A DNA stretch of 64,000 nucleotides from Calorimonas adulescens (GTDB lineage: Bacteria > Bacillota > Thermoanaerobacteria > Thermoanaerobacterales > UBA4877): the NCBI RefSeq assembly GCF_008274215.1, contig NZ_VTPS01000013.1, positions 1-64,000 on the forward strand, given 5' to 3'. This document shows positions 36,134 through 52,734 of this stretch, one piece after another. The first letter of the stretch is position 1. Each line of letters opens with the position of its first letter. The notes under the pieces are model-generated. The model searched no databases and was not told the DNA's origin. It saw only the letters and a list, made by a program, of their open reading frames with translations. Made by a program: the position numbers and the translations under genes.

Positions 36134-36198
36134 TTGTTCAGTATGATTTCATTTGTTAAGTAAATTATAGTATGATATAATTTATTTGTCAACATAGA
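36132..36198 (-). promoter_or_regulatory. Promoter and likely SorC operators of the glucitol-type PTS operon
   Basis: On the minus strand TTGACA (36192-36187) and TATAAT (36169-36164) are separated by exactly 17 bases, a consensus sigma-A promoter. On the plus strand the words ATTTGTTCAGTATGAT (36132) and ATTTGTTAAGTAAATT (36151) form a 19-base-spaced repeat, and a third ATTTGTCAACAT overlaps the -35 box. These repeats are candidate sites for the SorC-type protein. The operators are inference. Confidence 0.75.
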
Positions 36199-36333
36199 GT
36201 TTTAAAAAAATTTTTATAATATGTTAATTATTTAACGTGGTCTTTTTTGTGGAAAAATATCTTTAAGACCATTATAAAACCTTTTGAAAAAGTAATTGGC
36301 ATGATTATTGCTAAGAAAAGAGAGGGGATGATT

Positions 36334-39210
36334 ATGGAACAAAAACTTTTAGAACTCATTAAAAATGAAGACAAGAAAAACCCTATGACCGATGAAGAAC
36401 TGTCAGCAAAGTTAAAAATGAGGAGGGACGAGGTAACAGAGTTAAGATTAAAATTAAACATTCCAGACTCAAGAGAAAGAAGAAAGCCATATATCCTTAC
36501 TGAAATGAGAAAGATTATAAATCAAAACCCTTCAGTATCCGACAGGGAATTAACAAGGATTCTAAATGTAGAAGGTTACAACGTTTCCCGTACAGCAGTG
36601 ACAAAACTGCGGTCATTAATAGATTCAGAGGAAACGGTTAAACCCGAAAAAACAGCATCTCCAAATTTAGATCCTTTTTCATCAATAATCGGATATGATG
36701 GCAGTTTGAAAATGCAGGTGCAGCAGGCAAGGGCTGCTGTTATGTACCCGCCGCACGGGCTTCATACATTGATAGTAGGGCCAACAGGTGTAGGTAAAAG
36801 CCATCTGGCCGAAGCTATGTACAGATTTGCCTTAGAATCAGGCAAGTTTCAAAAAAATGCGCCCTTTATAGTATTCAATTGTGCCGACTATGCAGACAAT
36901 CCACAGCTGTTACTATCACAGCTCTTTGGACATGTGAAGGGTGCTTTTACTGGTGCAGACACAAACAAGGATGGGCTTATAGAACGAGCTAACGGCGGCA
37001 TATTATTTCTCGATGAGGTGCACAGGCTTCCACCCGAAGGTCAGGAAATATTGTTTTCTATATTGGATTACGGCAGATATCGCCGATTAGGTGAGGTTGA
37101 TAATTTAAGGAGTGTTGACGTGCTTATAATAGCAGCCACGACGCAGGATATAGAGTCTTCCCTTCTTCTTACATTCAGAAGAAGGATACCAATGGTAATA
37201 GAGATGCCCCCACTGGATGTAAGGCCAATATCAGAGAGACTGCAGATTATAAAAAGTTTCCTGGCCAAGGAGGCCACAAGGATTGGTAAAACCCTCAAAC
37301 TCAAACCGGAACCTTTAACAGCCATGCTCCTTTATGACTGTCCCGGTAACATAGGACAGCTTAGGAGCGATATACAGGTTGCCTGCGCCAAGGCCTTCAT
37401 AGCGAACCTGAACTCAAAACACGGTGATATAACCATAGGGCTTGAGGACCTTCCGGCACATGTGAGAAAGGGTATGCTCAAAAAGCGCATTAAGGAAGAT
37501 CAGATAGGCATCCTAAACCACGAACTGAAGTTTACGCCAAAAGACGAGGTGATAGACAAACTTCCTAAGGAAGAGGAGTATACACTCCCCGATGACATAT
37601 ACCTTTATATTGAGGACAGATATGCCGAATTGAGCAACAAAGGCTTGGAACAAAACGATATTAACGAGATAATATCGGGCGAGCTTCAGGTAAGATTTCA
37701 AAACTTTTCTAACAGCTTTTCCAGAGGGTATGCAATAAACAAACAGGACCTCGCCCAAATGGTTGGCGAAAAAATGGTCCATACAGTGGAAGAGATGTTA
37801 AAGGTAGCTGACGCTATGGGATACAAATACAAGGAGGGGCTTATCTATTGTCTTGCAATACACCTTGCGGCAACTGTATCCCGGATAAAAGCTGGCAAGA
37901 CCATAGTAAACCCTCAGATGGAAAAGATAAAAAAAGAGTTTGAAAAGGAACTGGCAATATCAGAGGAAATGAGCAAGATAATTGAAAAAGAATATGAAAT
38001 TCATGTGCCTCTTGAAGAGATTGGATATATAGCCCTTTACCTGAAGATGATGTCAAAGAATGACAGCTATGAAGAGCCATCCATAGCAGTAATAATTGTC
38101 ACACACGGGCATGTAGCCAAAGCCATGGCCGACGTTGCTAACGGACTCATGGGTGTAAACCATGCTGTAGGCATAGACATGCCTCTCGACAGATCTCCTG
38201 AAGAAGCCTTGGAAGAAACATTAGCCGCAGTAAAACGCATGGATGAGGGCAAGGGAGCTTTGCTTCTTGTGGACATGGGTTCTCTCGTAACCTTTGGCGA
38301 GATAATTATGCAGAGGGCAGGAATCCCTACCCGGACTATAGACCGTGTTGATACTGTGATGGCTATAGAAGCTGTCCGTAAGTCTCTCCTTCCTGATATT
38401 ACACTGGAAGACCTGGCCGAGTCATTGTCAGAGCCAAAACACAGCACAAGGTACGCAAAATCCGACCCCTTTATTGTAAAGGATAAAGCCATTGTAACCC
38501 TGTGTCTTACAGGTGAGGGCAGCGCCCAAACCATAGAGAGGTTTATATGCAGCTCTATCCCGGATATAAGGGATCATTATGAGGTTATACCCCTCGGTTT
38601 AACAAAGGAAGGTAATATCGGCAAAATAATAGGAGACCTTCAAAGGCAGTATGAAATTAAAGCTATTATAGGAACTATTTCTCCTGGGGAGGATTACAAT
38701 ATTCCTTTTATATCATTGGAAGAAATAATCAATGGGAATGGCATAAAATACTTGAAGAAAATATTAGGCATAAAGTCCCAAGATAATCCACTATCTGATT
38801 TAATAAAAAAAGAACTGATTACTATCGCCAATGAAGAAACAACAAAAGCATCAATAGTAGATGAAATGGTGGATATGCTGAAAAAACACGGATACGTAAA
38901 CAATGACTTCTTACTTGATGTTTACAAACGGGAACTGATGGGCGCTACCTGCATGGAGGAGGGATGTGCCATACCTCACGGCTTACCTCAGAATGTAATT
39001 AAACCATGTATTTCCGTATGCGTCTTGAAAAAACCTGTAAAGTGGCTGGAAGGCAATGAGGTCAAAGTGGTTTTCCTTCTAGCGCTGAAAGAGGATAATC
39101 AAGAAGCTTTTGCAGCTTTATATAAAAAAATAAGATCCAAGGGTTTTATTGATAGAATATTCACGGCTGATAATGTAGAAACTATAAGGGAGGTAATCAT
39201 TGATGATTAA
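36334..39210 (+). CDS. LevR-type sigma-54 activator with PRD and PTS domains (first)
   Basis: Protein of 958 residues from ATG 36334, behind GAGAGGGG. Order: two helix-turn-helix-like segments in residues 1-105; AAA+ activator with Walker [10 protein letters not shown] (149), GAFTGA (203-208) for sigma-54 contact and [14 protein letters not shown] (225); a PRD with H510 in [13 protein letters not shown]; a mannose-type IIA domain with H591 in [10 protein letters not shown]; and a GatB-like IIB domain with LCLTGEGSA. It ends in a fructose-type IIA domain with H882 in [11 protein letters not shown] and IIA histidines are phosphorylated by PTS proteins to tune activity. The gatA gene overlaps its 3' end, so it very probably activates the -24/-12 promoter at 39697. 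Confidence 0.9.
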
Positions 39211-39670
39211 AGACTTCATTAGAGAGGACCTTATACTAAATCCACTGGTTGCGAATAGCTCCGATGAGGCATTGAAGATAATCTCTGATTTGCTATACAG
39301 TAAAAAATATGTAAAAGATAGTTTTTATACGGCCTTGATTGAAAGAGAAAAACATTTCCCTACTGGCCTTTTGATCGACGGCATTAATGTGGCAATCCCT
39401 CATACAGATTGCGTCCATGTAATAAATCCATGCATAGGTGTAGGTGTATTGCAAAAACCTATTAATTTCAAAAACATGGGCAATCCAACTGAGGATGTGG
39501 CAGTGGATATAATCTTTGTCCTTGCACTCAACGAGCCCCATGGGCAAATAGAACTGCTGCGGCAGTTGATGACTCTATTTCAAGACAGGGAACTTCTTGA
39601 ATCAATAAAGTCCGCAAAAAACTCCACAGAGACATATAACGTCATTACCTCATTTGAATCTGTCATTTGA
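39200..39670 (+). CDS. PTS galactitol/fructose-type enzyme IIA
   Basis: Protein of 156 residues, PTS_EIIA type 2. The phosphohistidine is in NVAIPHTDCVHV (near residue 66), and the family segments FPTGLLIDG and DIIFVLALNEPHGQ flank it. It overlaps the end of the LevR-type gene by 11 bases, so it is made from the regulator's transcript and not from the -24/-12 promoter 27 bases downstream. It should phosphorylate the IIB protein encoded next. A related IIA domain is fused to the regulator itself. Confidence 0.88.
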   Translation: MMIKDFIREDLILNPLVANSSDEALKIISDLLYSKKYVKDSFYTALIEREKHFPTGLLIDGINVAIPHTDCVHVINPCIGVGVLQKPINFKNMGNPTEDVAVDIIFVLALNEPHGQIELLRQLMTLFQDRELLESIKSAKNSTETYNVITSFESVI

Positions 39671-39696
39671 CTGTGTTGCACAAAATATGTAATCTG

Positions 39697-39712
39697 TGGC
39701 ATGAAACTTGCT
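39697..39712 (+). promoter_or_regulatory. Sigma-54 (-24/-12) promoter for gatB-gatC
   Basis: TGGCATGAAACTTGCT matches the RpoN consensus TGGCAC-N5-TTGCT with one transition. GG (39698) and GC (39710) are 12 bases apart. The expected start point is near 39723, giving a short leader before the gatB ribosome site (AGGAGG). A TGTG-TTG-CACA dyad at 39673-39683 could be part of an activator site. The LevR-type protein upstream is the obvious activator. Confidence 0.85.
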
Positions 39713-39737: not shown

Positions 39738-40022
39738 ATGAATACAAAAAGAATAATTGTAGCATGCGGTACAGGCATAGCTACATCAACCGTTGTTGCC
39801 ACCAAGATTGAGGAGGCAGCAAAGGCAAACGGTATCAGTGTCGATATAAGACAGTGCAAGGTAACTGAACTGGACAGCATGGCCGGTGATGCAGACCTTA
39901 TAGTCACCACAACAATTACACAAAAGAAGTACCCGGTACCTGTTATAAATGGCCTGGCCTTCATAACCGGCATAGGTGCAGATAAGGTACTTGACGAGAT
40001 AATACAAAAATTAAAAGGTTAA
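39738..40022 (+). CDS. PTS galactitol-type enzyme IIB
   Basis: Protein of 94 residues, the usual GatB length. The phosphocysteine loop is IIVACGTGIATSTVVATKIE (C10), and the C-terminal half follows the IIB pattern DLIVTTTITQKKYPVPVING. AGGAGGTG precedes the ATG. It is the first gene behind the -24/-12 promoter and is followed by gatC after 12 bases. Confidence 0.92.
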   Translation: MNTKRIIVACGTGIATSTVVATKIEEAAKANGISVDIRQCKVTELDSMAGDADLIVTTTITQKKYPVPVINGLAFITGIGADKVLDEIIQKLKG

Positions 40023-40034
40023 GGGGGATAGAAC

Positions 40035-41285
40035 ATGAGTGTAATCAATTTTATTCTAAGCCTCGGGGCAAGCGTTATGCTCCCAATAATAATCTTTATA
40101 TTAGGGCTTGTATTTGGTCAAAAACCAGGAAAGGCATTTAGATCTGCCCTGACTATAGGTATTGGTTTCATCGGCATCAACCTTGTTATAGGACTTTTAA
40201 CAGGTAACTTAGGCCCTGCAGCTCAGGAAATGGTCCAGCGTATGGGCATAAAGCTTGATGTCATTGACGTTGGTTGGCCCGCTGCTTCTGCAATAGCCTT
40301 TGCTTCTCGTATAGGTGCCCTTATAATTCCTATAGGTCTACTTGTAAACATTATTATGCTTGTCACTAAAACCACCAAAACTGTGGACGTAGACTTTTGG
40401 AACTACTGGCATTTCGCTTTCACAGGCGCCTTAATTGTAGCTGCCACCGGCAACATGACCCTGGGTATAATCGGAGCCATTATAAATGTTATCATTGTCT
40501 TAAAAATAGCAGACTGGACAGCTCCACTTATCCAGGACTTCTATCAGCTTCCGGGTATTTCACTGCCTCATGGTTTTTCAGCGGCCTATGTACCCATCGC
40601 CATCCCATTAAATAAATTGATAGATCATATACCAGGCCTAAACAAGCTGGATGCCAGCACAGAAAATATAGAAAAGCGCTTTGGTATATTCGGCGAACCC
40701 ATGGTCATAGGGCTCATTCTTGGTATCATAATAGGTTTTGCCGCAGGCTACAGCATTCAGCAGGTGTTGCAGCTTGGTATGTCTATGGCAGGAGTTATGT
40801 TCCTGATGCCAAGAATGGTAAAAATCCTGATGGAGGGCCTCATACCTCTTTCAGAGTCTGCAAGGGAATTCATGCAGAAAAGATTTGCTGGCAGAGAATT
40901 CTACATTGGATTGGACTCTGCAGTATCTATAGGTCACCCTGCAGCCATATCCACTGCCCTAATCCTTGTACCTGTTACAATACTCCTGGCCTTAATAATA
41001 CCGGGCAACAGGGTATTGCCTTTTGGCGACTTAGCTACTATACCATTCATGGTAGCAATGATCGCACCGGTAACCAAGGGAAATGTTGTAAGATCAGTTT
41101 TAATCGGCAGTGTGGTCATTGGTGTAGGCCTTTTAATAGCAACCAATGTCGCCCCTCTTCACACAACTGCAGCTATAGATGCGGCCTTTAAGTTCCCAGC
41201 AGGTGCGACCACGATTTCCAGCATTTGTGACGGTGCCAATCCGCTTACGTGGATAATCCTTCAGGTTATGAAGATATTTGGTTAA
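40035..41285 (+). CDS. PTS galactitol-type enzyme IIC
   Basis: Membrane protein of 416 residues of the EIIC-Gat group, with about nine to ten spans. Segments seen are ILGLVFGQKPGKAFRSALTI near the N-terminus, DVIDVGWPAASAIAFASRIG, LPGISLPHGFSAAYVPIAIP, FAGREFYIGLDSAVSIGHPA and VLPFGDLATIPFMVAMIAPV. It imports and phosphorylates an unidentified polyol or sugar together with the IIB and IIA proteins. No catabolic gene follows; a strong terminator comes directly after the stop. Confidence 0.92.
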   Translation: MSVINFILSLGASVMLPIIIFILGLVFGQKPGKAFRSALTIGIGFIGINLVIGLLTGNLGPAAQEMVQRMGIKLDVIDVGWPAASAIAFASRIGALIIPIGLLVNIIMLVTKTTKTVDVDFWNYWHFAFTGALIVAATGNMTLGIIGAIINVIIVLKIADWTAPLIQDFYQLPGISLPHGFSAAYVPIAIPLNKLIDHIPGLNKLDASTENIEKRFGIFGEPMVIGLILGIIIGFAAGYSIQQVLQLGMSMAGVMFLMPRMVKILMEGLIPLSESAREFMQKRFAGREFYIGLDSAVSIGHPAAISTALILVPVTILLALIIPGNRVLPFGDLATIPFMVAMIAPVTKGNVVRSVLIGSVVIGVGLLIATNVAPLHTTAAIDAAFKFPAGATTISSICDGANPLTWIILQVMKIFG

Positions 41286-41599: not shown

Positions 41600-43180
41600 T
41601 TATCTAAATAATGTTATAAACGACTTAAATAAAGTTCTAACATCGTATTGGTATTGCTTTATAGGTTCAACTTGTTTATCTATCCCAAAAAGTTTATATA
41701 CTGCAATTCTTGCAGATCTGACTGAATATTCTTCTGTAAATACTACATCTTCAGGTATCTCGCAGAACTGACCAATAAATGCTAAGTTTGTCGAACCTTC
41801 CGGTACAACTTGAGGCCTATCCCCTATCGACCTCGGCATAAATTGTGCTGTAATAAATGGCATCATACAGGGAATACAATTTGCAGATTTTATTATATCA
41901 TCCATATCCTTCTCAAACTTGAGATGATGTAAAAGTTCAATTAATATCTCTTCTCCTGTACATTCAGACATCTTCTTTTTGACATAGTCACCTATATTAT
42001 CACAATGTAACCCATAACCCCAAAATACTTTAATATTATCAGGTTGGTTTCTAAAATGTGGTTGATGTGCTAAAACAATTGACATCAACCAGCTTGAATC
42101 TTTAAATGTTACAAGTGCTCCTGTACCTGCCTTATTGCGCGAGAATTTTTCCATTAAATCAAAGAATTTTGAATCATGGCATGTTACCGTAAATGACTCC
42201 CATTTCGATCCATCTATATGATCGTCAAATGAAGAGGGATTCCCTAAACCAGGTCTCTTTTTGGATATTTTATCCCATAGATTCCAAGATGCGCCCTTGC
42301 TGTTTAAAGTGGGGGCTTTTGTCATTGAACCTAGACTATACCCTTCTGTCATTGAACCATTTGTAACAATTACAATGTCACTTTCATTTAACTCAATTAT
42401 TTTTTCAACGCCTTCCTCCTTGTAGTGTATCTTAGTTACGGTAATTTCCTTAGAATCTTTAAAATCTAGATCTGTTATAGTACATTTCATCTTGAAATCA
42501 ACATTGTAATTATCTAAATATCTTTTTATGGGAAGTATTATTGAATCGTATTGATTATAAGGGGTTCTTGTTACACCCTCCAGAGTATGAATTCTCGGAA
42601 ATTCATGCATAAATCTTATCATATATCTTCTCAACTCTGCTAAGCTATGCCAAGGTTGAAATGCAAAAGTTGTAGCCCACATATACCAGAAGTTTGTTTC
42701 GAAAAAATGAGGTCCAAACCAATCATTAATTTTTAACTTATCTAACTTTTCTTCTGATGTTGCAATAAGTTTTGCCAAAGCAATTCTGTCATCATTGTCA
42801 AATCCCATTGACATTACATCGACGACTTCACCGTTCTTATTTACAAGTCTTGCATTAGAGTGTGTGGGGTGTGCAGTATCAAATTCAATTATTTCTTCTC
42901 TTACCGATTTATCCGGATTGTCTATTGATGGTATCGACATTAATAGTTCCCAAGTGTTCTCGTAGGTCTCGTCATTTAACATTCTTCCGCCTCTGATAAC
43001 ATATCCTTTCTCAGGATCGCCAGCACCATCATTACTTCCACCTAACACATTCGCCTCTTCAAAAATATGAATGTTTTTTCCTGGAAAATTGCAATCTCTA
43101 ACCAGATAACATGCCCCTGCAAGTGATGCTATTCCACCACCCACAAAATAAACCTGTCTGCTTCTATATTCTTCTCTCAT
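41600..43180 (-). CDS. ohyA: Oleate hydratase
   Basis: Protein of 526 residues starting at ATG 43180, eight bases after AAGGAGG; longer in-frame starts lack a site. It has the FAD site VYFVGGGIASLAGACYLVRD, the family-typical ANVLGGSNDGAGDPEKGYVI and RGGRMLNDETYENTWELL, and FETNFWYMWATTFAFQPWHS near the substrate channel. NLAFIGQFCEIPEDVVFTEE and SVRSARIAVYKLFGI close it. It hydrates oleate to 10-hydroxystearate, a detoxification reaction that uses FAD without net redox change. The TetR-type gene upstream is the likely regulator. Confidence 0.93.
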   Translation of the reverse strand: MREEYRSRQVYFVGGGIASLAGACYLVRDCNFPGKNIHIFEEANVLGGSNDGAGDPEKGYVIRGGRMLNDETYENTWELLMSIPSIDNPDKSVREEIIEFDTAHPTHSNARLVNKNGEVVDVMSMGFDNDDRIALAKLIATSEEKLDKLKINDWFGPHFFETNFWYMWATTFAFQPWHSLAELRRYMIRFMHEFPRIHTLEGVTRTPYNQYDSIILPIKRYLDNYNVDFKMKCTITDLDFKDSKEITVTKIHYKEEGVEKIIELNESDIVIVTNGSMTEGYSLGSMTKAPTLNSKGASWNLWDKISKKRPGLGNPSSFDDHIDGSKWESFTVTCHDSKFFDLMEKFSRNKAGTGALVTFKDSSWLMSIVLAHQPHFRNQPDNIKVFWGYGLHCDNIGDYVKKKMSECTGEEILIELLHHLKFEKDMDDIIKSANCIPCMMPFITAQFMPRSIGDRPQVVPEGSTNLAFIGQFCEIPEDVVFTEEYSVRSARIAVYKLFGIDKQVEPIKQYQYDVRTLFKSFITLFR

Positions 43181-43359
43181 TTTAATCAGCCTCCTTAAAT
43201 ATTTACATATTGTTTTTATAAAATAAGTATAGTCCCGTAACGTCATTATTAAAATAAACAAAAACCAGAGGCTGTAAAAATTTCTATCGTTTATTTTAAT
43301 TTGTATATATTCTTCCAAATTTATTAAAGCATTAAAGACAAATTAAAATAATTATTAAA

Positions 43360-43944
43360 TTACTGGCTATCATCTTCATTTTCATATTTTTGTAATGCTT
43401 TAATAAAATTGCCTTCAATAAGTTCACTTAAATCTTCAATAATAATTTTAGGGTCTTCCTTCATACCATTTTTCATCCATTGGATGATTAATCCAATAAA
43501 CGCAAGCGTATAAAAATTAGCAATAAATTTCTTATGTTCTTCCTTTACCTTCATATTATTTGAAAGTTCATATACAACACCTAAAACAAGATCATATGTA
43601 ACAGAATAAAGATAATTATCCAAATGCTCCCTTCCTAATGAATTTAAAGTATTCATGCAAAAAGATTTATTATCCTCAATATATTTAAAAACATGATAAA
43701 ATCCTTCTGTCCAGTGCTTATAGCTTTTATATTGGGCAATTTTTTCAACGGCTTCTTTTTCGTAAATCCAACCAAGTAAATCGTAAATATCATGAAAGTG
43801 ATAATAAAAGGTTTGTCTGTTAAGCCCACATTCATCCACAATGTTCTGAATTGAAATTTTATTTAACGGCTTACTTCTCATTAATTCTTTTAGTGCATCT
43901 CCAAGAACTTTTTTTGTTATTTGCGAGCTTGACACACAACTCAC
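43360..43944 (-). CDS. TetR-family transcriptional regulator
   Basis: Protein of 194 residues. The N-terminal helix-turn-helix is KISIQNIVDECGLNRQTFYY followed by HFHDIYDLLGWIYEKE. The C-terminal part resembles the TetR_C_8 group (DhaS-like), with FYTLAFIGLIIQWMKNGMKE near the end. It is encoded 179 bases upstream of the oleate hydratase gene in the same direction and probably controls it in response to fatty acids. A perfect palindrome lies just upstream of its start. Confidence 0.85.
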   Translation of the reverse strand: MSCVSSSQITKKVLGDALKELMRSKPLNKISIQNIVDECGLNRQTFYYHFHDIYDLLGWIYEKEAVEKIAQYKSYKHWTEGFYHVFKYIEDNKSFCMNTLNSLGREHLDNYLYSVTYDLVLGVVYELSNNMKVKEEHKKFIANFYTLAFIGLIIQWMKNGMKEDPKIIIEDLSELIEGNFIKALQKYENEDDSQ

Positions 43945-43951
43945 CCTTTCT

Positions 43952-43971
43952 TTAATCTATAAGTAGATTAA
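43952..43971. promoter_or_regulatory. Palindromic candidate operator of the TetR-type regulator
   Basis: TTAATCTA and TAGATTAA form 8-bp perfect arms around TAAG, 7 bases upstream of the regulator's ATG (43944) on the opposite side of its ribosome site. TetR proteins usually bind such short palindromes next to their own promoter. Confidence 0.55.
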
Positions 43972-44394
43972 CCCACTCATTACATGTATTATTTTCACGA
44001 GACAGGCATATATCCAACTGCACTACTACCCTTCCAAAATAACAATAGTCGCTTTCAAGCAAAAGGTCACTGAGTTAACCTTCAAAAACAGTGCTGGCTT
44101 TTATATTTTTTCCTCCTACTGCTTTTTTTGCCTGGCTCTTCTATTGAACTAAACCGCCCAATTAATAACTCCGTCAAACTTTCAGTGTCCAGGCTTCTAT
44201 CACTAATTTTCAGTTTACCTCTCTATGCCTCCAGCGTGTTCCTTAAAGCGGTTGGTTAAATATACCCAGTTGCTTTAAATCTTTACTGCAAAGATTATGG
44301 AAATTTACAAACGGAAGACTAAAGTGACCAGGCCTATACCACTATATTTTCATTTTCTCCATTACGGAAATCAACAAATATAAAGCAATCAGCA
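43972..44394. other. Gene-free stretch between the TetR gene and the IS200 element
   Basis: No reading frame of plausible composition is present on either strand. The sequence is T- and C-rich on the plus strand and looks like eroded DNA. No promoter or hairpin of note was seen beyond the operator to its left. Confidence 0.4.
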
Positions 44395-45142
44395 CCACCC
44401 GTCTAACGAGTGGTTTGTTCTGGGACTATAAGCCTCTGTTACCGGCCAGTGCCTAAAGGTGCTGGCTTTCACTTTGTTCAAGCCACTATACCTTTGCCTC
44501 TTTTGCCACCCCTAAAAGGACGAACGTATTACCGGCTACCCATTAAATGGGTCCTCATATTCTTTTACACCTAATTTATCCAACATGATGTCATATTTCT
44601 CCTGCTCTTGTATATACTTTCTGAGAGTTGCCTCATTAAGCCCTACCGTGCTTACCTAATATCCTTCTGCCCAAAAATGTCTGTTCCCAAATTTGTACTT
44701 CAAGTTTGCATGTTTGTCAAATATCATCAATGCACTCTTCCCTTTTAAGTATCCCATAAAGCTAGACACACTAATTTTGGGTGGTACGCTCACCAGCAGG
44801 TGTACATGATCCGGCATTAAATGTCCTTCTATAATTTTCACTCCTTTATATTGACATAATTCTTTTAATATATCCCTTATACTTTCTTTGTATTGATTAT
44901 ATATTATTTTTCGTCTATACTCAGGAGTGAACACAATGTGGTATTTGCACATCCATTTTGTGCCTGCCATTTCATCTCGTTTATTAGCCATTAAATCACC
45001 TTTCCTTTTGTTATATATAGTAGCTTGAACAACTCTATTATAACGGAAAGGTGATTTTTTGTATAACTTCTGTCGCACACCCGCATAGCGGGTGGTTTTT
45101 TGTTTCGCTTGCTATGCGAGCTCAACAGGCTAAAGCCCATAA
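44395..45142 (-). mobile_element. IS200-type element (copy B)
   Basis: Element of about 0.75 kb with the broken transposase (44536-44991) at its centre. The right end as read on the plus strand (45000-45142) matches the element at 1-182. It has a hairpin CACCCGCATAGCGGGTG (45070-45090). The other end carries two further hairpins: ACCAC.CGT/ACG.GTGGT at about 44395-44416 and CCAGTGCC/GGTGCTGG at 44456-44475. Such hairpins are the cleavage-guiding ends of IS200/IS605 elements. Outer limits are approximate. Confidence 0.7.
44536..44991 (-). pseudogene. tnpA: IS200 transposase TnpA with in-frame stop
   Basis: The frame from ATG 44991 to TAG 44536 would encode 151 residues. It shows KWMCKYHIVFTPEYRRKIIY, the HUH motif in MPDHVHLLVSVPPK and FGNRHFWAEGY. 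An in-frame TAG (44656-44658) then interrupts codon 112. The remaining 39 codons are still open and read STVGLNEATLRKYIQEQEKY... to EDPFNG. The catalytic tyrosine of the family lies in that YIxxQ helix, so the truncated protein lacks it. Most likely a TAC or TAT codon mutated to TAG, since related proteins have two tyrosines there. Confidence 0.85.
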
Positions 45143-45178
45143 TAAAAAAGGTACAGCGATCGCTGTACCTTATTTTTA
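45142..45178 (-). terminator. Terminator of the large sigma-54 operon
   Basis: A perfect 24-bp palindrome (45148-45171, centre GCGATCGC) begins 12 bases after the aldolase stop on the minus strand and is followed by TTTTTTATTATG. It is a strong rho-independent terminator and marks the operon end at the edge of the IS200 element. Confidence 0.88.
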
Positions 45179-45190
45179 TTTAACCATCAT

Positions 45191-45781
45191 TTATAGGCTT
45201 ATTGGCTGGAATTTTGCCCCTAATAACGTTAAATTAAAGAACTCCTTGGCATTTTCCTCTACGTATATAAGCTTAATAATAGCATCTTCTGCGTTCTCCC
45301 CCACAGTAACTACACCGTGACTCTTTAACAAGCAACAATCGTATCCTTGTAAAGCTTTTACTACATTATCTGCCAGTTCCTCTGTTCCCGGTTTTGCATA
45401 ATCTGCTACAGGAATTGTTATTGCTCCATAGTGCACAGCCTCTCTACTGACCGGTGGGATCTCCATGCCGGCAATTGCAAATGTTGTGGCATAGAGGGAA
45501 TGAGAATGGCAAATAGCATATACATCGTCCCTCTTCTGATAGATTTTAACATGCATCAAATATTCAACTGAAGGCTTGTATGGTGATGAAAGAATTTTCC
45601 CATTTTGATCTAATACCGAAATCATTTCTGGTAAAAGATTCCTTCTTGCAATTCCAGAAGGAGTAATGTAAATGTATCCGCTATATTTATCACGCACACT
45701 AAAATTGCCAGATTTATACTTGATCAACCCCTGCCTTTCTGCCTCTTGTGCCATTTCCACTACTTCTGCTCTGATATCCAT
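45191..45781 (-). CDS. Class II aldolase/epimerase (FucA/AraD family), distal copy
   Basis: Protein of 196 residues. Visible are SGNFSVRDKYSGYIYITPSG, the zinc ligands of the first pair in CHSHSLYATTFA, the catalytic-glutamate region PPVSREAVHYGA, and a third histidine in LLKSHGVVTVG. The family cleaves fuculose-1-P, rhamnulose-1-P or similar, or epimerises ribulose-5-P. It is the last gene of the operon and is only distantly related to the proximal family member at 51981. It may cleave the phosphorylated ketose formed by the dehydrogenases. Substrate unknown. Confidence 0.85.
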   Translation of the reverse strand: MDIRAEVVEMAQEAERQGLIKYKSGNFSVRDKYSGYIYITPSGIARRNLLPEMISVLDQNGKILSSPYKPSVEYLMHVKIYQKRDDVYAICHSHSLYATTFAIAGMEIPPVSREAVHYGAITIPVADYAKPGTEELADNVVKALQGYDCCLLKSHGVVTVGENAEDAIIKLIYVEENAKEFFNLTLLGAKFQPISL

Positions 45782-45841
45782 TTTAAAATTTACCCCCTTT
45801 ATATATTAAAAAATTATTAATAATCTTTAAATATCAAGGGT

Positions 45842-46159
45842 TTATGAACCTATTTGCGAAGTACATAAGATGTTTTTAACACATTGCTCAAAAATTACAT
45901 CAAAATTATCTTGATTCATTAATCCAACATATGCCGTTGGTATAACTAATACTTGGGATTTTAACTTGGTGCTAATCGGGCTTGGGCTTATCACTATAGA
46001 AGAAGCCGAATCCCAGTTGTTTACATCAAAATAATTTATTTCCAAAATGTCTGCGCTAAAAATATTTAATTTTTCTAAACTATTATTTACTAAGTTTATT
46101 ATTCTGGTATTATTGACATTGCACGAAGTCTGCAGCACAAGTACCCTAATCTTATCCAA
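45842..46159 (-). CDS. Divergent PTS IIB-like small protein
   Basis: Protein of 105 residues from TTG 46159, with GGGGG 8 bases upstream at the end of the SDR gene, which it overlaps by 8 bases. No family was recognised at first sight. Its layout follows GatB: VLVLQTSCNVNNTRIINLVN aligns with the phosphocysteine loop region, and SIVISPSPISTKLKSQVLVI with the second half. The single cysteine in that loop is shifted by two or three residues from the usual position. It may be a degenerate IIB used for sensing, or an unrelated protein of similar size. Confidence 0.45.
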   Translation of the reverse strand: MDKIRVLVLQTSCNVNNTRIINLVNNSLEKLNIFSADILEINYFDVNNWDSASSIVISPSPISTKLKSQVLVIPTAYVGLMNQDNFDVIFEQCVKNILCTSQIGS

Positions 46160-46916
46160 TGGTATAACCCCCGTCCACCGGTAACACAACGCCAGTTATA
46201 AAAGATGCTTTATCCGATGCCAAAAAAAGCACTGCTTCAGCTATTTCTTCTGGTAATGCATATCTTTTTAAAGGTATCTTATCCATACGCTCTTGTTCTT
46301 GCTGCAATAGACCTTGAACATCAAACCTACTTCTAACTCTTTCTGTCAGCGTAGGTCCCGGTGCCACCGCATTTACACGTATACCGTATTTTGCTAAATC
46401 CAATGCCAATATTTTGGTCATAGTATGGACACCAGATTTTGTTATCGTATATTGCATTTTATCGCTCTTAATTTGAAGCGCACTGGAAGATCCAATATTA
46501 ACTACCGAACCTTTGATAGAATTCTCTCTCATATATTGGGTAAAAATTTTTGTACAATGAAACACGCTCAAAAGATTAGTCTTGATTGACATGTCCCACA
46601 TTTCTTCTGTGATTTCTTCCCATTGAGTTTTATTTGTAAATCCGCCTGCATTATTAACCAAAATTTCAGGAGTGCCTATATCAGTTACAATATTGTGGCT
46701 GATATTCTCAATATCTTTATAATCACTTATATCGCAAAGATATCCGCAAACCCTCCCCTTTGTTTCGTCTTTTATTTTCTTAACTGCGGCATCCAACTTT
46801 TCAGCGTTTCTGGCTATTACAACGACGCTGGCATTCTCTTCTGCAAATTTTTTAGCTATTGCAAAACCTATACCACTACTTCCACCTGTCACAATCACAT
46901 TTTTGCCATCAAACAT
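46152..46916 (-). CDS. Short-chain dehydrogenase/reductase
   Basis: Protein of 254 residues from ATG 46916 after GGAG. Classical SDR: cofactor site VIVTGGSSGIGFAIAKKFAE, NNAG in ILVNNAGGFTN, a catalytic serine in VNIGSSSAL, and the YxxxK pair in QYTITKSGVHTM. The closing segment is RVNAVAPGPTLTERVRSRF and LPVDGGYTIG. It oxidises or reduces a hydroxyl on the sugar-derived intermediate. It follows the type 2 dehydrogenase by 48 bases. Confidence 0.88.
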   Translation of the reverse strand: MFDGKNVIVTGGSSGIGFAIAKKFAEENASVVVIARNAEKLDAAVKKIKDETKGRVCGYLCDISDYKDIENISHNIVTDIGTPEILVNNAGGFTNKTQWEEITEEMWDMSIKTNLLSVFHCTKIFTQYMRENSIKGSVVNIGSSSALQIKSDKMQYTITKSGVHTMTKILALDLAKYGIRVNAVAPGPTLTERVRSRFDVQGLLQQEQERMDKIPLKRYALPEEIAEAVLFLASDKASFITGVVLPVDGGYTIG

Positions 46917-46964
46917 ATTCAACTCCAATCACCGCCGTATAAAAATATTTTTAATAAAATAAAT

Positions 46965-47996
46965 TTACTTTTCCTCCAGCAGTTCATTCAATTGATTCAT
47001 AATACTTACTGGTATCGGGATACCATCTTTTAGACGAATCTCTTTTGTCATGTGTTCTATCTCTCCTGGTAATAGGACAGCCCCTGTTTCTTCAGCAGTT
47101 GGGCAAGATTTTATCTTCACTGTAAGTTCCTTTATTGACTCATAAAATTTATCTATATCGAAAATCACAGATGGATTAAGGCTCATGAGCAAGAAACCTA
47201 CATTTTGAGGTCTATCTATTTGATTATGCAATGACAAAACTTTATCCAAAAAGCCTGATCCTGATAACAAACCAGCTAAAATATCTACTATGAGCGATAA
47301 GCCATATCCTTTATGGCCCCCCAGTGGCAACAGGACCCCATTTAATGCCTCCTTCGGATCATCAGTGGGTCTTCCTTCTCTGTCTAAAGCCCACCCAACT
47401 GGAATTTTTTCTCCCTTTTCTAATGCTAAATAGATCTTAGATTTTGCAACCGCACTTGTGGCCATGTCCAGAATAATTGGTTTACTGTCCTTTACAGGGA
47501 CAGCTACTGATATTGGGTTTGTTCCTATGAGTGGTTTTTTACCTCCCCATGGGGGCATACTCGGTGGTGCATTACATATTGCTATTCCAATCATCCCTTT
47601 TTCTGCTGCTAAGGCACTATAATAAAAGGCTGGTCCAAATGTATTGCTGTTTCTACAAAAAGACGCAAACAATCCCTTGCTTTTTGATTCCTCTATGGCT
47701 TTCTCCATCGCCTTTCTTGCAACCACAGCACCCAATGCATTATCTCCATTGAATACAGAAAAAGAAATACCTTCCTTTTCAATTTTCACATTTGGGATGG
47801 GGTTAGCCCCACCATTTCTCAGTCTCTTTAAGTAGGTAGGCAATATTGCAACACCATGAGTATCTACTCCTCTTAAGTTTGCTTCCACGATTGTGTCAGC
47901 AATTATTTCCGCATCGTCTTTTGGTACAGACTCTTTCATAAGTAATGTCACACATATTTTACGCAGTTCACTTTCTTTGATCAAAACAGTCTCCAT
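46965..47996 (-). CDS. Type 2 malate/lactate dehydrogenase family protein (Ldh_2)
   Basis: Protein of 343 residues of the NAD(P) family that includes YlbC/AllD, sulfolactate dehydrogenase and 2,3-diketo-L-gulonate reductase. Seen are ANLRGVDTHGVAILPTYLKR, RNSNTFGPAFYYSALAAEKG, IGTNPISVAVP and LPLGGHKGYGLSLIVDILAG. It does not use the usual Rossmann fold. The likely substrate is a 2-oxo or 2-hydroxy sugar acid. A stable hairpin separates it from gatC upstream. Confidence 0.86.
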   Translation of the reverse strand: METVLIKESELRKICVTLLMKESVPKDDAEIIADTIVEANLRGVDTHGVAILPTYLKRLRNGGANPIPNVKIEKEGISFSVFNGDNALGAVVARKAMEKAIEESKSKGLFASFCRNSNTFGPAFYYSALAAEKGMIGIAICNAPPSMPPWGGKKPLIGTNPISVAVPVKDSKPIILDMATSAVAKSKIYLALEKGEKIPVGWALDREGRPTDDPKEALNGVLLPLGGHKGYGLSLIVDILAGLLSGSGFLDKVLSLHNQIDRPQNVGFLLMSLNPSVIFDIDKFYESIKELTVKIKSCPTAEETGAVLLPGEIEHMTKEIRLKDGIPIPVSIMNQLNELLEEK

Positions 47997-48023
47997 ATTT
48001 TATTTCACCACCATAACCATATT

Positions 48024-48057
48024 TAAGCTGATCACACTCAAGAGTGTGACCAGCTTA
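48024..48057 (-). other. Stable hairpin between gatC and the Ldh_2 gene
   Basis: TAAGCTG..TCACACTC pairs with GAGTGTGA..CAGCTTA over 16 positions with one mismatch. No T-run follows on the minus strand, so it is more likely a processing or stabilising element between the transporter part and the enzyme part of the operon than a terminator. Confidence 0.55.
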
Positions 48058-48072
48058 TTAGATCCCATACTC

Positions 48073-49425
48073 TTATAAATTAGTTGATTTTGATTCAGTA
48101 ACTTCCCCTGAGTAGTATTTTTTAAGTAAGTAAAAGCTAATAATCCCCAATATGACTATTACTGAGACAACTACTATATTTTTCTTCACAATCTCTACTC
48201 CAGCCCAAATTATCGGTGTTGTCTTCAACCAGGTAATTTGCGATACATTCTCGGGCATTTTTACCCCGACCTCTTTTGCAAGCATTGTGAACGAAGGCGC
48301 TACTGCACTTGCTCCCCATAAACTAATAGCCAGTACAAATACACCTATAATCAATGTCCTGACCAGGTCACCGCTGGTTATGGCAACTATTGGCGCCATT
48401 AAGCATCCAAAATTCCCCAGATCACCAAATGGCAAGGTAGTGTTACCTGGCAAAATTACAGATAAAACCACCAATACAGGAATCAATAATATTGCTGACG
48501 TAATAGTTGTGGGATGTCCTGCTAAAATCGGCCAATCAAGGCCAATATAGAATTCTCGGCCTGGGTATCTGCTTTTCATAAAGTCCGACGCTGCTTCTGA
48601 GATTGGCATAAGTGCTTCCATAAATATTCCTACAATTCGCGGTAACATTACCATTACAGTTGCGGTTACAACACCCAGTTTCAATATATTATCAAATGAA
48701 TATCCAGCCAAAGCTCCAATCAAAAGCCCCATTATTAATCCAATTATCAAATTTTCGCCCAAAAAACCGAGTTTCTTTTGTATTGTAGCTGGATCTGCCT
48801 TTAGTTTATTTAAACCAGGTATCTTATCAAGAAGATATGCTGCTGGCGTCACCATTACCAACCATGTTGCACACGGATGTGGAACCGATATCCCTGGTAC
48901 TCCGCTGACTTCCTGTACCTTCTTAGCAGTTAAATCGCCTAATTTCAATTCAATTATTATCATCGCCACTGCCAGAGCATATGACCAGAGTAGATTCCCC
49001 GTAATGCCATATATTATTGCACCTGCAAAAACTTTTTGCCAAACATTCCAAAGGTCTACATTTAATGTCTTTGTAAAGCCAACCCACAAAAGCAATAAAT
49101 TAAGTAAAATCTGCAAAGGAAACATGCTTGCTGCGTACGGCCAGGCCCAACTTATTGTGGAAGCTGCTGGCCAACCTATATCCATTGCAGTTAACTTTAA
49201 ACCAGTCCGATTAATCATTGCCTGTGCAGCTGGCGCTATCTGTCCAACCAATAGCTGGGAAATAAATAGATTTATGGCTGTAAAAGCGACACCTAATGTC
49301 AAACCTGCTCGTAACGCTTTCCCTGGTTTCAATCCAAAAATTAATCCCAGAAAGAACATTATAAGTGGAAGAAATACATTGGCACCTAAACCCACTATAT
49401 ACTGAACAATTCCAAGAAGATTCAT
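48073..49425 (-). CDS. PTS galactitol-type enzyme IIC (second system)
   Basis: Membrane protein of 450 residues, paralogous to the IIC at 40035. Shared segments are LIFGLKPGKALRAGLTLGVA, DIGWPAASTISWAWPYAASM, VPGISVPHPCATWLVMVTPA, YPGREFYIGLDWPILAGHPT and LPFGDLGNFGCLMAPIVAIT. It carries an extra C-terminal hydrophobic span (IVVVSVIVILGIISFYLL). Its start overlaps the IIB gene by 4 bases. It imports the inducer/substrate of the sigma-54 operon. Confidence 0.92.
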   Translation of the reverse strand: MNLLGIVQYIVGLGANVFLPLIMFFLGLIFGLKPGKALRAGLTLGVAFTAINLFISQLLVGQIAPAAQAMINRTGLKLTAMDIGWPAASTISWAWPYAASMFPLQILLNLLLLWVGFTKTLNVDLWNVWQKVFAGAIIYGITGNLLWSYALAVAMIIIELKLGDLTAKKVQEVSGVPGISVPHPCATWLVMVTPAAYLLDKIPGLNKLKADPATIQKKLGFLGENLIIGLIMGLLIGALAGYSFDNILKLGVVTATVMVMLPRIVGIFMEALMPISEAASDFMKSRYPGREFYIGLDWPILAGHPTTITSAILLIPVLVVLSVILPGNTTLPFGDLGNFGCLMAPIVAITSGDLVRTLIIGVFVLAISLWGASAVAPSFTMLAKEVGVKMPENVSQITWLKTTPIIWAGVEIVKKNIVVVSVIVILGIISFYLLKKYYSGEVTESKSTNL

Positions 49426-49715
49426 TTCTTTCCCTCCTCTAAAATCTTAAAAATTTCATCCAGGACATTTTTCTCGCCCACTCCTGTGAGGAATGACACG
49501 CCATTCACAACGGGAACATTGTCCACTTTTAACCCCGGTGTTATACTTATAATTAAGTCAGCATGTAGTATCTCACCTTGTAACTCACGAAAGGCAATTG
49601 GTTTAACATCTACATCAATGCCCTTCTCTTCACAAGCTTTCTTCACTTTTTGAGCAACAATTGTTGAACTTGCAATACCAGATCCACACAGGGTAATTAT
49701 CCTTTTCTTGGCCAT
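49422..49715 (-). CDS. PTS galactitol-type enzyme IIB (second system)
   Basis: Protein of 97 residues with the phosphocysteine loop RIITLCGSGIASSTIVAQKV (C10) and a C-terminal half DLIISITPGLKVDNVPVVNG like the GatB family. It sits between the IIA gene (35 bases upstream) and the IIC gene (4-base overlap). Confidence 0.92.
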   Translation of the reverse strand: MAKKRIITLCGSGIASSTIVAQKVKKACEEKGIDVDVKPIAFRELQGEILHADLIISITPGLKVDNVPVVNGVSFLTGVGEKNVLDEIFKILEEGKK

Positions 49716-49750
49716 ATAAAAGCCCCCCTTAATTGACTATAGTTATTGAA

Positions 49751-50212
49751 TCAATTACAAAGTCTATCTTTTAATATCGAAGCCACATATGAACTATCAT
49801 TAGCTAACAATATCTCCTCTATTACTTTAGAATCACAGATGAACTGAGAAAATTTTGACAGAAATATTGCTTGCTCTTCCTTTTTGTTTAATGCCAAAAG
49901 AAAAATTATTCTAACATCTACTGTTTCCTTATCATCTCCCATTAGGCCAAATCTTACTGGTTCTGTTAATGTTGCAACTGCTATTGCCGAGCTATTGCAA
50001 TGCTCAGCATCTGTGTGCGGTATAGCAATTTTTACTGGTTCTGTCGGCAAACCAGTCGGAAACCTTTTTTCTCTTTCTAATACACTCCTCAAAAAAGAGT
50101 CTTTCACCACCCCTTCCTGTAACAAAATATTTGCAAGTTTCATTATCACCTCTTCCTTATTTTTTGCCTCATAATTATTTAAAACAAATTTCTCATCAAT
50201 TTTAACATCCAT
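49751..50212 (-). CDS. PTS galactitol/fructose-type enzyme IIA (second system)
   Basis: Protein of 153 residues, PTS_EIIA type 2, with the phosphohistidine in VKIAIPHTDAEHC (near residue 66) and EREKRFPTGLPTEP before it. Unlike the first system, this IIA gene lies inside the sigma-54 operon, so IIA, IIB and IIC are made together. Confidence 0.9.
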   Translation of the reverse strand: MDVKIDEKFVLNNYEAKNKEEVIMKLANILLQEGVVKDSFLRSVLEREKRFPTGLPTEPVKIAIPHTDAEHCNSSAIAVATLTEPVRFGLMGDDKETVDVRIIFLLALNKKEEQAIFLSKFSQFICDSKVIEEILLANDSSYVASILKDRLCN

Positions 50213-50257
50213 AATTTCAGCTCCCAGAATCAGATTGTGATATGCAAACTCATGTAA

Positions 50258-50902
50258 TTACTCCATAAAGATTTTAATTTTTTCTACAAATTTTTTTGCT
50301 GTCTCAGTTATAGATTTAAAATCTCCAGATTTAGCTCCCGCTGTTAAAGAACCACCAACACCAACTGCTACGGCTCCAGCTTTAAACCACTCAGTGACAT
50401 TATCCAGATTTACACCACCTGTGGGCATAAGCGGCGCATACGGAAGTGGACCTCTTACAGCCTTCAAAAACGTAGGCCCAAGAGACTCTCCCGGAAATAT
50501 TTTTACAATGTCTGTCCCACATTCCATGGCTTCGATTATATCCTTTACTGTCATGGCTCCTGCCATAATAGGTATTTGATACCTATTGCACAGTTTTACT
50601 GTACCTATATTCAAAGAAGGTGTGACAATATACTGGGCTCCAGATAAGATAGCAATTCTTGCAGTTTCTGAATCCAGAACAGTCCCCGCTCCAACTAAAA
50701 GGGTATCTCTATCGTATTCCCCACTAAGAGTTTCTATTACTTTATCTGCGTGTGGTACTGTAAACGTTATTTCTATCGAATGTATCCCTCCTTCCAAACA
50801 GGCATCTGCTATCTTTCGAGCTTCTTCAGGATTTTCGGCTCGCACTATAGCCACTATACGATCTTTTAATATTCGATTTAAAACAGCTATTTTATTTATC
50901 AT
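50258..50902 (-). CDS. eda: KDPG/KHG-type aldolase
   Basis: Protein of 214 residues from ATG 50902, six bases after GGAGG. KDPG aldolase features are IVAIVRAENPEEARKIADAC, SIEITFTVPHADKVIE with the catalytic glutamate, LVGAGTVLDSETARIAI and VTPSLN. The Schiff-base lysine is in DIVKIFPGESLGPTFLKAVR, and a final phosphate site is MPTGGVNLDNVTEWFKAGA. It splits 2-keto-3-deoxy-6-phosphogluconate or an analogue to pyruvate and a triose phosphate. No gluconate-type dehydratase is present nearby, so the natural substrate is open. Confidence 0.88.
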   Translation of the reverse strand: MINKIAVLNRILKDRIVAIVRAENPEEARKIADACLEGGIHSIEITFTVPHADKVIETLSGEYDRDTLLVGAGTVLDSETARIAILSGAQYIVTPSLNIGTVKLCNRYQIPIMAGAMTVKDIIEAMECGTDIVKIFPGESLGPTFLKAVRGPLPYAPLMPTGGVNLDNVTEWFKAGAVAVGVGGSLTAGAKSGDFKSITETAKKFVEKIKIFME

Positions 50903-50932
50903 ATATGTTGCCTCCATTCTAACTTTAGTAAA

Positions 50933-51976
50933 TTACATGTTTGGATGAATAACCACCTTAAGAGCACTCGCTGTTTGAACAATTTCAAAACCCTTTAATG
51001 CATTCTCAATTGACAACTCTGTAGATATAATATCCGAAATATTAATCCTCCCCGAACCTAAGAAATCTATGGTCGCTTCATATTCATTGGGCCCAGACCC
51101 GTTGGCCCCAAATACCCCAATCTGCTTATAATGTATGAGGTTTGTGTCCAGTTGTATTATGGAATTATTATGTGGTAAGCCGGCAAAAAAGCTCACCCTG
51201 CCATTTTTCCTAACCATTTGAAGTGCTTGCAATTGTGCGATGCCTGATCCGCAGCTTACAATAACAACGTCAAATCCACGTCCGTTTGTTATTTTATCTG
51301 CTTCTTCAATAGGATCTTTAGTACCTGAATTAACAATAAAATCAATATCAAATCTCTCGGCCATTTTACATCTATCTTCTGACAGGTCAAAGAGTGCAAT
51401 TTTACTTGCTCCTCTATATCTTGCCTGGAGTGAATGCATTAAACCTATCGGCCCACCGCCAATTATTGCTACTGAACTCCCTATAGATATATTTAACAGG
51501 TTTTGCCCATTGTAAATTGCAGTAAATGGTTCAATCAGACATGCATTCCTCAAACTTAAGCTGTCGGGGATTCGCTTGACATTACCCATTTCAATGGCAA
51601 TGGCAGGTACTTTTACATATTCAGCAAATGCGCCATCAAAATCAAAGCCAATTATCTTTCTGTTATCACAGAGGTTCTGCATACCATGCTGGCAGTAATA
51701 ACATTTTCCACATGGTATCCCTGGTACTACTATCACTCTGTCTCCTATGTTATAACCACTTATATCTTTACCCACTTCTGCAACTGTACCAGAAAACTCA
51801 TGCCCCAGTATTCTTTCCCCTTTAATCCTTGTATGGCCGGATTTATACGTCCTTACATCAGTACCACAAATTGAACAGGAATCTACTTTAATCAGGATTT
51901 CATTTTCAGCGATTTCTGGTTTTGGTACGTCCATTACACTCATCTCATTAATCCCTTTAAAGACCAATGCCTTCAT
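50933..51976 (-). CDS. Zinc-dependent polyol/alcohol dehydrogenase
   Basis: Protein of 347 residues from ATG 51976, after GAGGAG. It is a medium-chain dehydrogenase with the catalytic zinc region CSICGTDVRTYKSGHT and GHEFSGTVAEVG, the structural-zinc cysteines in CGKCYYCQHGMQNLC, and a Rossmann site VAIIGGGPIGLMHSLQ. Related enzymes are sorbitol, galactitol-1-P and threonine dehydrogenases. With a galactitol-type PTS in the same operon, oxidation of an imported polyol phosphate is the natural guess. It begins 4 bases after the upstream aldolase. Confidence 0.88.
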   Translation of the reverse strand: MKALVFKGINEMSVMDVPKPEIAENEILIKVDSCSICGTDVRTYKSGHTRIKGERILGHEFSGTVAEVGKDISGYNIGDRVIVVPGIPCGKCYYCQHGMQNLCDNRKIIGFDFDGAFAEYVKVPAIAIEMGNVKRIPDSLSLRNACLIEPFTAIYNGQNLLNISIGSSVAIIGGGPIGLMHSLQARYRGASKIALFDLSEDRCKMAERFDIDFIVNSGTKDPIEEADKITNGRGFDVVIVSCGSGIAQLQALQMVRKNGRVSFFAGLPHNNSIIQLDTNLIHYKQIGVFGANGSGPNEYEATIDFLGSGRINISDIISTELSIENALKGFEIVQTASALKVVIHPNM

Positions 51977-51980
51977 ATCT

Positions 51981-52646
51981 TCACTCCTCTTTATGGTCCC
52001 TTTGACCATATTTAGTCAAATATTTTTTTCTGATATTCAAAATTTCATTATCGTCAAGCCTTAGAGGCGTTCCAATGCTGTTTGATATTACATATATCTT
52101 TGCAGCATTTTCGACGATTTCAGCCGTAGTATACGCATCATCCAAATTATTCCCCACAGCAACAACACCATGATTGGCTAAAAGTACCGCTGTCTTGTCT
52201 CCCATAGCATCCAATGCATTTCGGCCAAATTCTTCTGTACCGGACGACATATAGGGAGCAATCGGAACATCCCCACCAACTTTACTTGCAAGGGTAGCTA
52301 TCACAACAGGTATTGATTTCCCCGCACATGCAAATGCAGTTGCAAATATTGAATGAGTATGAACAATCCCTCCTATCCACGGTCTTTCTCTATAAAATAG
52401 GAGATGCAGAGGTGTTTCTGTACTTGGCTTCCATTTACCCTCTACCATTTTCCCCTCATTATCTACAACACATATATCTTCTGGATGCAGTTCATTATAA
52501 TCCATTCCACTGGGAGTTATAAAAATATATCCTGTCTCTGAGTCCCTTGCACTTACATTACCCCATGTCGCTGGTGCCATTCCAGACCTTGACATTTTAA
52601 GCGCAATATCTATAACTTTATTCCTAAGCTCCAAACCATTTTCCAT
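51981..52646 (-). CDS. Class II aldolase (FucA/AraD family), proximal copy
   Basis: Protein of 221 residues from ATG 52646, eight bases after GGAGG. Family features are APATWGNVSARDSETGYIFI, TPSGMDYNELHPEDICVVD, STETPLHLLFYRERP, zinc ligands in VHTHSIFATAFACAG and a third in LLANHGVVAVGNN. It is the first gene behind the -24/-12 promoter. It is more typical of fuculose/rhamnulose-phosphate aldolases than the distal family member. Confidence 0.88.
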   Translation of the reverse strand: MENGLELRNKVIDIALKMSRSGMAPATWGNVSARDSETGYIFITPSGMDYNELHPEDICVVDNEGKMVEGKWKPSTETPLHLLFYRERPWIGGIVHTHSIFATAFACAGKSIPVVIATLASKVGGDVPIAPYMSSGTEEFGRNALDAMGDKTAVLLANHGVVAVGNNLDDAYTTAEIVENAAKIYVISNSIGTPLRLDDNEILNIRKKYLTKYGQRDHKEE

Positions 52647-52718: not shown

Positions 52719-52734
52719 AGCAAATTTCATGCCA
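52719..52734 (-). promoter_or_regulatory. Sigma-54 (-24/-12) promoter of the ten-gene operon
   Basis: On the minus strand TGGCATGAAATTTGCT, with GG and GC 12 bases apart, differs by one base from the promoter at 39697. The start point should lie near 52708, about 60 bases before the first aldolase codon. It is the only strong promoter seen for the operon running to 45191. Confidence 0.85.

Follow-up and report, generated by a model that had tools for sequence, protein, structure and literature searches.

The 64,000-nucleotide stretch of DNA analysed here, called the window below, contains a sugar-uptake cluster of an anaerobic bacterium in which a sigma-54 site lies between two of the transporter genes, gatA and gatB, a placement that seems unusual and raises the question of which genes are driven by this site and with which partners the IIA component is made. 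The genes concerned are all on the forward strand and comprise a 958-aa sigma-54 activator of the LevR subfamily (36334 to 39210, assigned by domain profiles), the IIA gene gatA (39203 to 39670, PTS_EIIA_2), the IIB gene gatB (39738 to 40022, by domain profile) and the IIC gene gatC (40035 to 41285, TIGR00827, over cut-off). Against the curated galactitol cut-offs the IIC passed (TIGR00827, 560.8 vs 542.2 bits), whereas the IIA (84.9 vs 139) and the IIB (75.1 vs 95) did not, and the system is therefore referred to as Gat-family. The gatA gene and the regulator gene share 8 bases when gatA is read from ATG 39203, or the 11 bases given in the preliminary description when it is read from TTG 39200; a GGAGG is found at 39192.

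The site between gatA and gatB, TGGCATGAAACTTGCT (39697 to 39712, forward strand, hereafter P2), had been described as near-perfect; its position was confirmed and the consensus scan showed an exact match to TGGCAYRNNNNTTGCW, including the GG and GC doublets and their spacing. It begins 26 bases 3' of the gatA stop codon (39668-39670), and 25 bases separate its end from the gatB ATG (39738); the predicted start, at about 39723, would be that of gatB-gatC. Three exact matches to TGGCAYRNNNNTTGCW were present on both strands of the window (36297 forward, 39697 forward and 52719 reverse) against a chance expectation of about 0.06 for a pattern with 9 fixed and 3 two-fold positions, and in the whole genome, which has an intact copy of rpoN, the pattern occurred 24 times compared with once for a control pattern read backward. 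Nothing beyond the general risk of consensus scans speaks for the 39697 site being a functionless chance match. We ruled this out as hardly credible because of the enrichment and a conserved flank, to which the short distance to a PTS gene can be added.

The flank in question is the element ACAAAATATGTAA (39680 to 39692, forward strand), which adjoins P2 and is homologous to ACAAAAYATGYCA, a sequence conserved 17-20 bases 5' of the -24 box in the transporter promoters that relatives have in their regulator-gatA interval. With a weight matrix trained on those promoters, the window being excluded, ACAAAATATGTAA was found at offset -17, on the same strand and at the same offset as in the relatives, at a per-position frequency of 1.6e-5, a value that carries the caveat that the training sequences were aligned by hand. 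This agreement supports the view that P2 corresponds to the promoter of the relatives, now in another position, and is not a site newly arisen by chance. When the same matrix was used to search further upstream within gatA for an activator site, no match was obtained in the window, and matches at -229 to -243 in relatives were set aside because they fell on the codons of a conserved KP motif. An apparent suppression of synonymous change at the 3'-end of gatA (0/15 four-fold sites, vs 15/38 before it) was also discarded, as it was indistinguishable from a recombination edge.

A second exact match, TGGCATGATTATTGCT (36297 to 36312, hereafter P1), is located 21 bases 5' of the regulator ATG (36334) on the regulator's own strand, with a predicted start at about 36323. 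Among 40 related regulators sharing this type of N-terminus, and allowing one mismatch at most, 28 had a P1-type site, in 12 cases an exact one, 69-87 bases before a conserved Glu codon; the background rate of such sites over the loci of those 40 regulators, true sites included, was below 1e-4 per position, which corresponds to fewer than 0.01 expected per locus. P1-type sites were not found upstream of the other LevR-type regulators of the window's genome, and were also missing in the close paralogue C19 and in C. tyrobutyricum. The exact P1 and its counterparts in the relatives suggest that the regulator-gatA unit is itself probably driven by sigma-54, and that induction, through P1, probably extends to the regulator and IIA.

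This bears on the earlier proposal that IIA is produced at all times along with the regulator, which had missed P1 and does not hold as worded, since the regulator-gatA unit has a promoter site of its own; in its strict form the constitutive reading of IIA is probably wrong. One could still suppose that P1 is inactive, that regulator and gatA are expressed constitutively from a sigma-A promoter and that gatB-gatC alone are induced, via P2, as the overlap of gatA with the regulator gene and a sigma-A-type extended -10 site at 36153 to 36181 (forward strand; TTGTTA, 17 nt, TATAAT, with a TG extension) would allow. We consider this rather unlikely, because it leaves an exact P1 with counterparts at a fixed distance in so many relatives, at such a low chance rate per locus, without a function. 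The sigma-A-type site, for which the consensus match is the sole basis (4 such sites found vs 1.9 expected in shuffles), could instead be the promoter behind a basal, pre-induction supply of regulator and IIA. Such a basal level is required by every self-activated sigma-54 promoter, and providing it may be the role of the site; the TATGATATAAT motif is likewise present upstream of the regulator in the g6 relatives. The region from 36134 to 36333 is a divergent regulatory region, common to a SorC-type regulator and a glucitol-type (gut/srl) operon on the opposite strand, and it contains a perfect sigma-A consensus promoter, TTGACA-17-TATAAT, at 36192-36164 on the reverse strand.

P1 also has a candidate activator element (36238 to 36250), which reads ACAAAAAAGACCA on the reverse strand and TGGTCTTTTTTGT on the forward strand. 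It lies 59 bases 5' of the -24 box and its score was moderate (per-position frequency of 1.3e-4 in the relatives-only model), its strand and approximate distance matching those in G073, G279, G256 and G149. With the matrix trained on transporter promoters, the element was found in the matching position in about half of the regulator promoters of the relatives, and as a reverse-strand copy near -50 in four further ones. At P1 of the window itself the proximal element was weak (0.08 expected by chance) and the reverse-strand copy at -59 was the only one to score; a comparison of the two flanks, made pairwise inside single genomes, had little power. Read on the opposite strand, the conserved element gives TGGCATGTTTTGT, a word resembling the -24 box, so that an inverted -24-like sequence is found in both classes of promoter. 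In the regulator promoters of the f41 and f92 relatives (L117-L124), GGCATNNNNTGTGG recurs upstream of the -12 box and GCATAAAATGTG directly 3' of it; the latter could be an operator for self-repression.

We searched for a terminator between gatA and gatB and found none, and read-through from gatA should thus yield basal IIB and IIC, which should be what a sensing transporter needs before induction. The idea that IIB and IIC are simply the induced genes was therefore sound in so far as P2 precedes gatB, but fails in its strict form, given the expected read-through. Elsewhere in the window the second system was correctly described as having its IIA in the induced operon: this gene (49751-50212, reverse strand) lies behind the sigma-54 promoter at 52719 to 52734 (reverse strand), the third exact match to TGGCAYRNNNNTTGCW, and the regulator of this system differs in its HTH and contains two PRDs. 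From 42000 to 52000 no similar DNA was found in the sister genome of the window (G023), and most of the operon of the second system appears to be accessory.

That the two systems are wired differently was borne out, and the relatives showed on which side the unusual arrangement lies. Relatives at the order and phylum levels were found by searching with the regulator, and their loci were then read. In 27 related loci a sigma-54 site with 0 or 1 mismatch was located between the regulator and the IIA gene, which places IIA inside the induced operon there, and a site between IIA and IIB was seen, among the loci read, in the window and its sister G023 only. The latter is the MAG Yes75-04, with a regulator 96% identical to that of the window. 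Its similarity to the window (L076/L156/L157) spans from the contig end (27651) to 41321, just past the gatC terminator, and is mosaic: gatC, the srl genes and the two promoter regions share 98-100% identity, and between 37054 and 39560 the C-terminal half of the regulator and gatA differ by 10-15%.

In two other loci, L133 (G411) and L136 (G412), the gatA gene abuts that of the regulator or overlaps with it, and the sole sigma-54 site is 5' of the regulator; L154 (G460), where gatA is found at the stop of the regulator gene, resembles them as far as the locus reaches. All three apparently have one self-induced operon. By analogy, a single operon regulator-gatA-gatB-gatC transcribed from P1 might do most of the work in the window as well, P2 being a minor internal promoter, and the missing terminator between gatA and gatB would agree with it. 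Since P2 is exact and its flank is conserved in the window and its sister, we think this unlikely. The base of the regulator tree gives no order of older and newer states; G411 and G412 are deep branches of it and G460 is outside the tree. For this reason, and because the gatA overlap also occurs in these two deep branches, the strict claim of a derived arrangement was dropped; the overlap in the deep branches, together with the abutting genes in G460, makes an ancestral overlap possible. A gatA tree was too short to show whether gatA itself had been replaced.

The order of domains in the activator is a tandem RpoN-like HTH, AAA+, PRD, an EIIA-Man-like domain, an EIIB-Gat-like domain (Cys724) and a C-terminal EIIA_2 domain (His882). 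The AAA+ domain was recognised by PF00158 (141 bits) and has GAFTGA at 203; the PRD and EIIA-man domains were called by Pfam, and the EIIB-Gat-like domain, whose Cys724 is conserved, received no Pfam call. His510, His591 and Cys724 were conserved in 49/49 of the proteins compared and His882 in 42/49, that is, in all except those that have no EIIA_2 domain. The truncated C-terminal PRD2 of LevR-type activators is absent and PTS_EIIA_2 (99 bits) takes its place.

The tandem DNA-binding region is encoded at 36337 to 36621 (forward strand), with HTH1 at residues 3-50 and HTH2 at about 52-96. When its 96 residues were compared with PDB profiles, HTH1 matched 2o8k, which we take to be a structure of the RpoN domain in complex with -24 DNA, with an E value of 1.1e-11, and HTH2 searched alone matched the same entry at 3.4e-8. 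The Pfam family Sigma54_DBD (PF04552) was matched by 19/19 members of the subfamily tested, and the other LevR proteins of the genome differ from the activator in having an unrelated winged HTH at the N-terminus. A single-sequence structure model of the region (pLDDT 75) yielded no clear match of fold, the best Foldseek E value being 0.27, with the sigma-54 structures 9msh and 8red among the weak matches. No description of an RpoN-like DNA-binding domain in such activators was found in the open-access literature. RpoN-like N-termini were also seen in regulators preceding HPr-like or other genes (L129, L135, L137 and L138, also L130, L131 and L134), and no sigma-54 site with up to one mismatch was found 5' or 3' of these regulators.

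The RpoN-like domain offers a direct and testable guess at the DNA target of these activators. Tentatively, and with some doubt on our part, the subfamily may have taken over the domain with which sigma-54 reads the -24 box, duplicated it, and come to use inverted -24-like boxes (TGGCATNNNNTGTG) beside the real -24 box as the enhancer of its own promoter and of its target promoter. If this is true, the sequences recognised by the activator and by the sigma factor would be related DNA words that lie side by side and sometimes overlap. At least nine LevR-type activators, and several sigma-54 activators of other types, are encoded in the genome, so P1 and P2 might both be real with P1 serving another activator, or acting as a road-block, and the regulator not being autoregulated. 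We regard this as improbable, because in many genera P1-type sites accompany this regulator subfamily, and both kinds of promoter have the common element, which is mostly missing at the other LevR-type promoters of the genome.

Taking P1 and P2 to be active and driven by this activator, as we infer from the sequence, the wiring that we favour, with moderate confidence, has two sigma-54 promoters that are both direct targets of the activator encoded at the locus: P1 would transcribe the activator and gatA in an autoregulatory manner and P2 would transcribe gatB-gatC, IIA having been relocated to the regulator transcript. In uninduced cells the weak sigma-A-type promoter would supply basal regulator and IIA. 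On induction, the activator would increase the output of P1, and so of itself and of IIA, in the positive feedback loop predicted by the conserved sigma-54 site before the activator, and would raise IIB-IIC from P2 on top of their basal level. The ratio of IIA to activator would then stay fixed, whether uninduced or induced. Relatives keep P1 and yet have P2 before gatA, which suggests that IIA moved here from the induced transporter operon to the self-induced regulator transcript. It is plausible that IIA acts on the regulator, most likely through the EIIB-like Cys724 or the EIIA-like His882, and without sugar it could, by analogy with LevR and MtlR, feed phosphate to Cys724. The locus would thus be a naturally occurring example of one PTS component shifted from the transporter operon to the regulator transcript, and the existence of two wirings of one system makes the role of free IIA in the control of PTS-linked sigma-54 activators testable by comparison.

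Control of a sigma-54 activator by free IIA has a parallel in DctD and IIAGlc of Vibrio vulnificus (PMC9040800, PMC11077940). There, dephospho-IIA binds an activator of the response-regulator type. To our knowledge, no operon shared by DctD and IIAGlc is known. The clostridial activators MopR and DioR are autoregulated and, as here, have their own genes among the predicted sigma-54 targets (PMC6615313), but are not PTS-controlled and have a different DNA-binding domain. B. subtilis MtlR, the mannitol activator, has C-terminal EIIB-Gat-like and EIIA-like domains, as does the window activator, and its Cys419 and His599, equivalent to Cys724 and His882, are controlled by EIIA-Mtl and EIICB-Mtl, a control to which its own promoter PmtlR also answers (PMC3217849); however, MtlR does not belong to the sigma-54 activators, and its EIIA is encoded within the transporter operon, by mtlF. 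A likeness in architecture exists to the PTS-controlled sigma-54 activators of the LevR/CelR type in Bacillota (B. subtilis LevR, B. thuringiensis CelR and E. faecalis MptR), which have an AAA+ domain with GAFTGA, a PRD, an EIIA-Man-like His and an EIIB-Gat-like Cys, and whose genes adjoin their own PTS operon behind a sigma-54 site (PMC10864463, PMC8262876). LevR is activated by HPr phosphorylation and inhibited by EIIB phosphorylation (PMC8262876, PMC10864463), and the replacement of PRD2 by an EIIA domain is already described for some clostridial LevR proteins in PMC10864463, which cites Deutscher 2014. Unlike the LevR/CelR-type activators, the window activator has EIIA_2 in place of PRD2 and, where an HTH of the usual kind would stand at the N-terminus, a tandem RpoN-like one, and its locus has a sigma-54 site before the regulator itself and the IIA gene outside the transporter operon.
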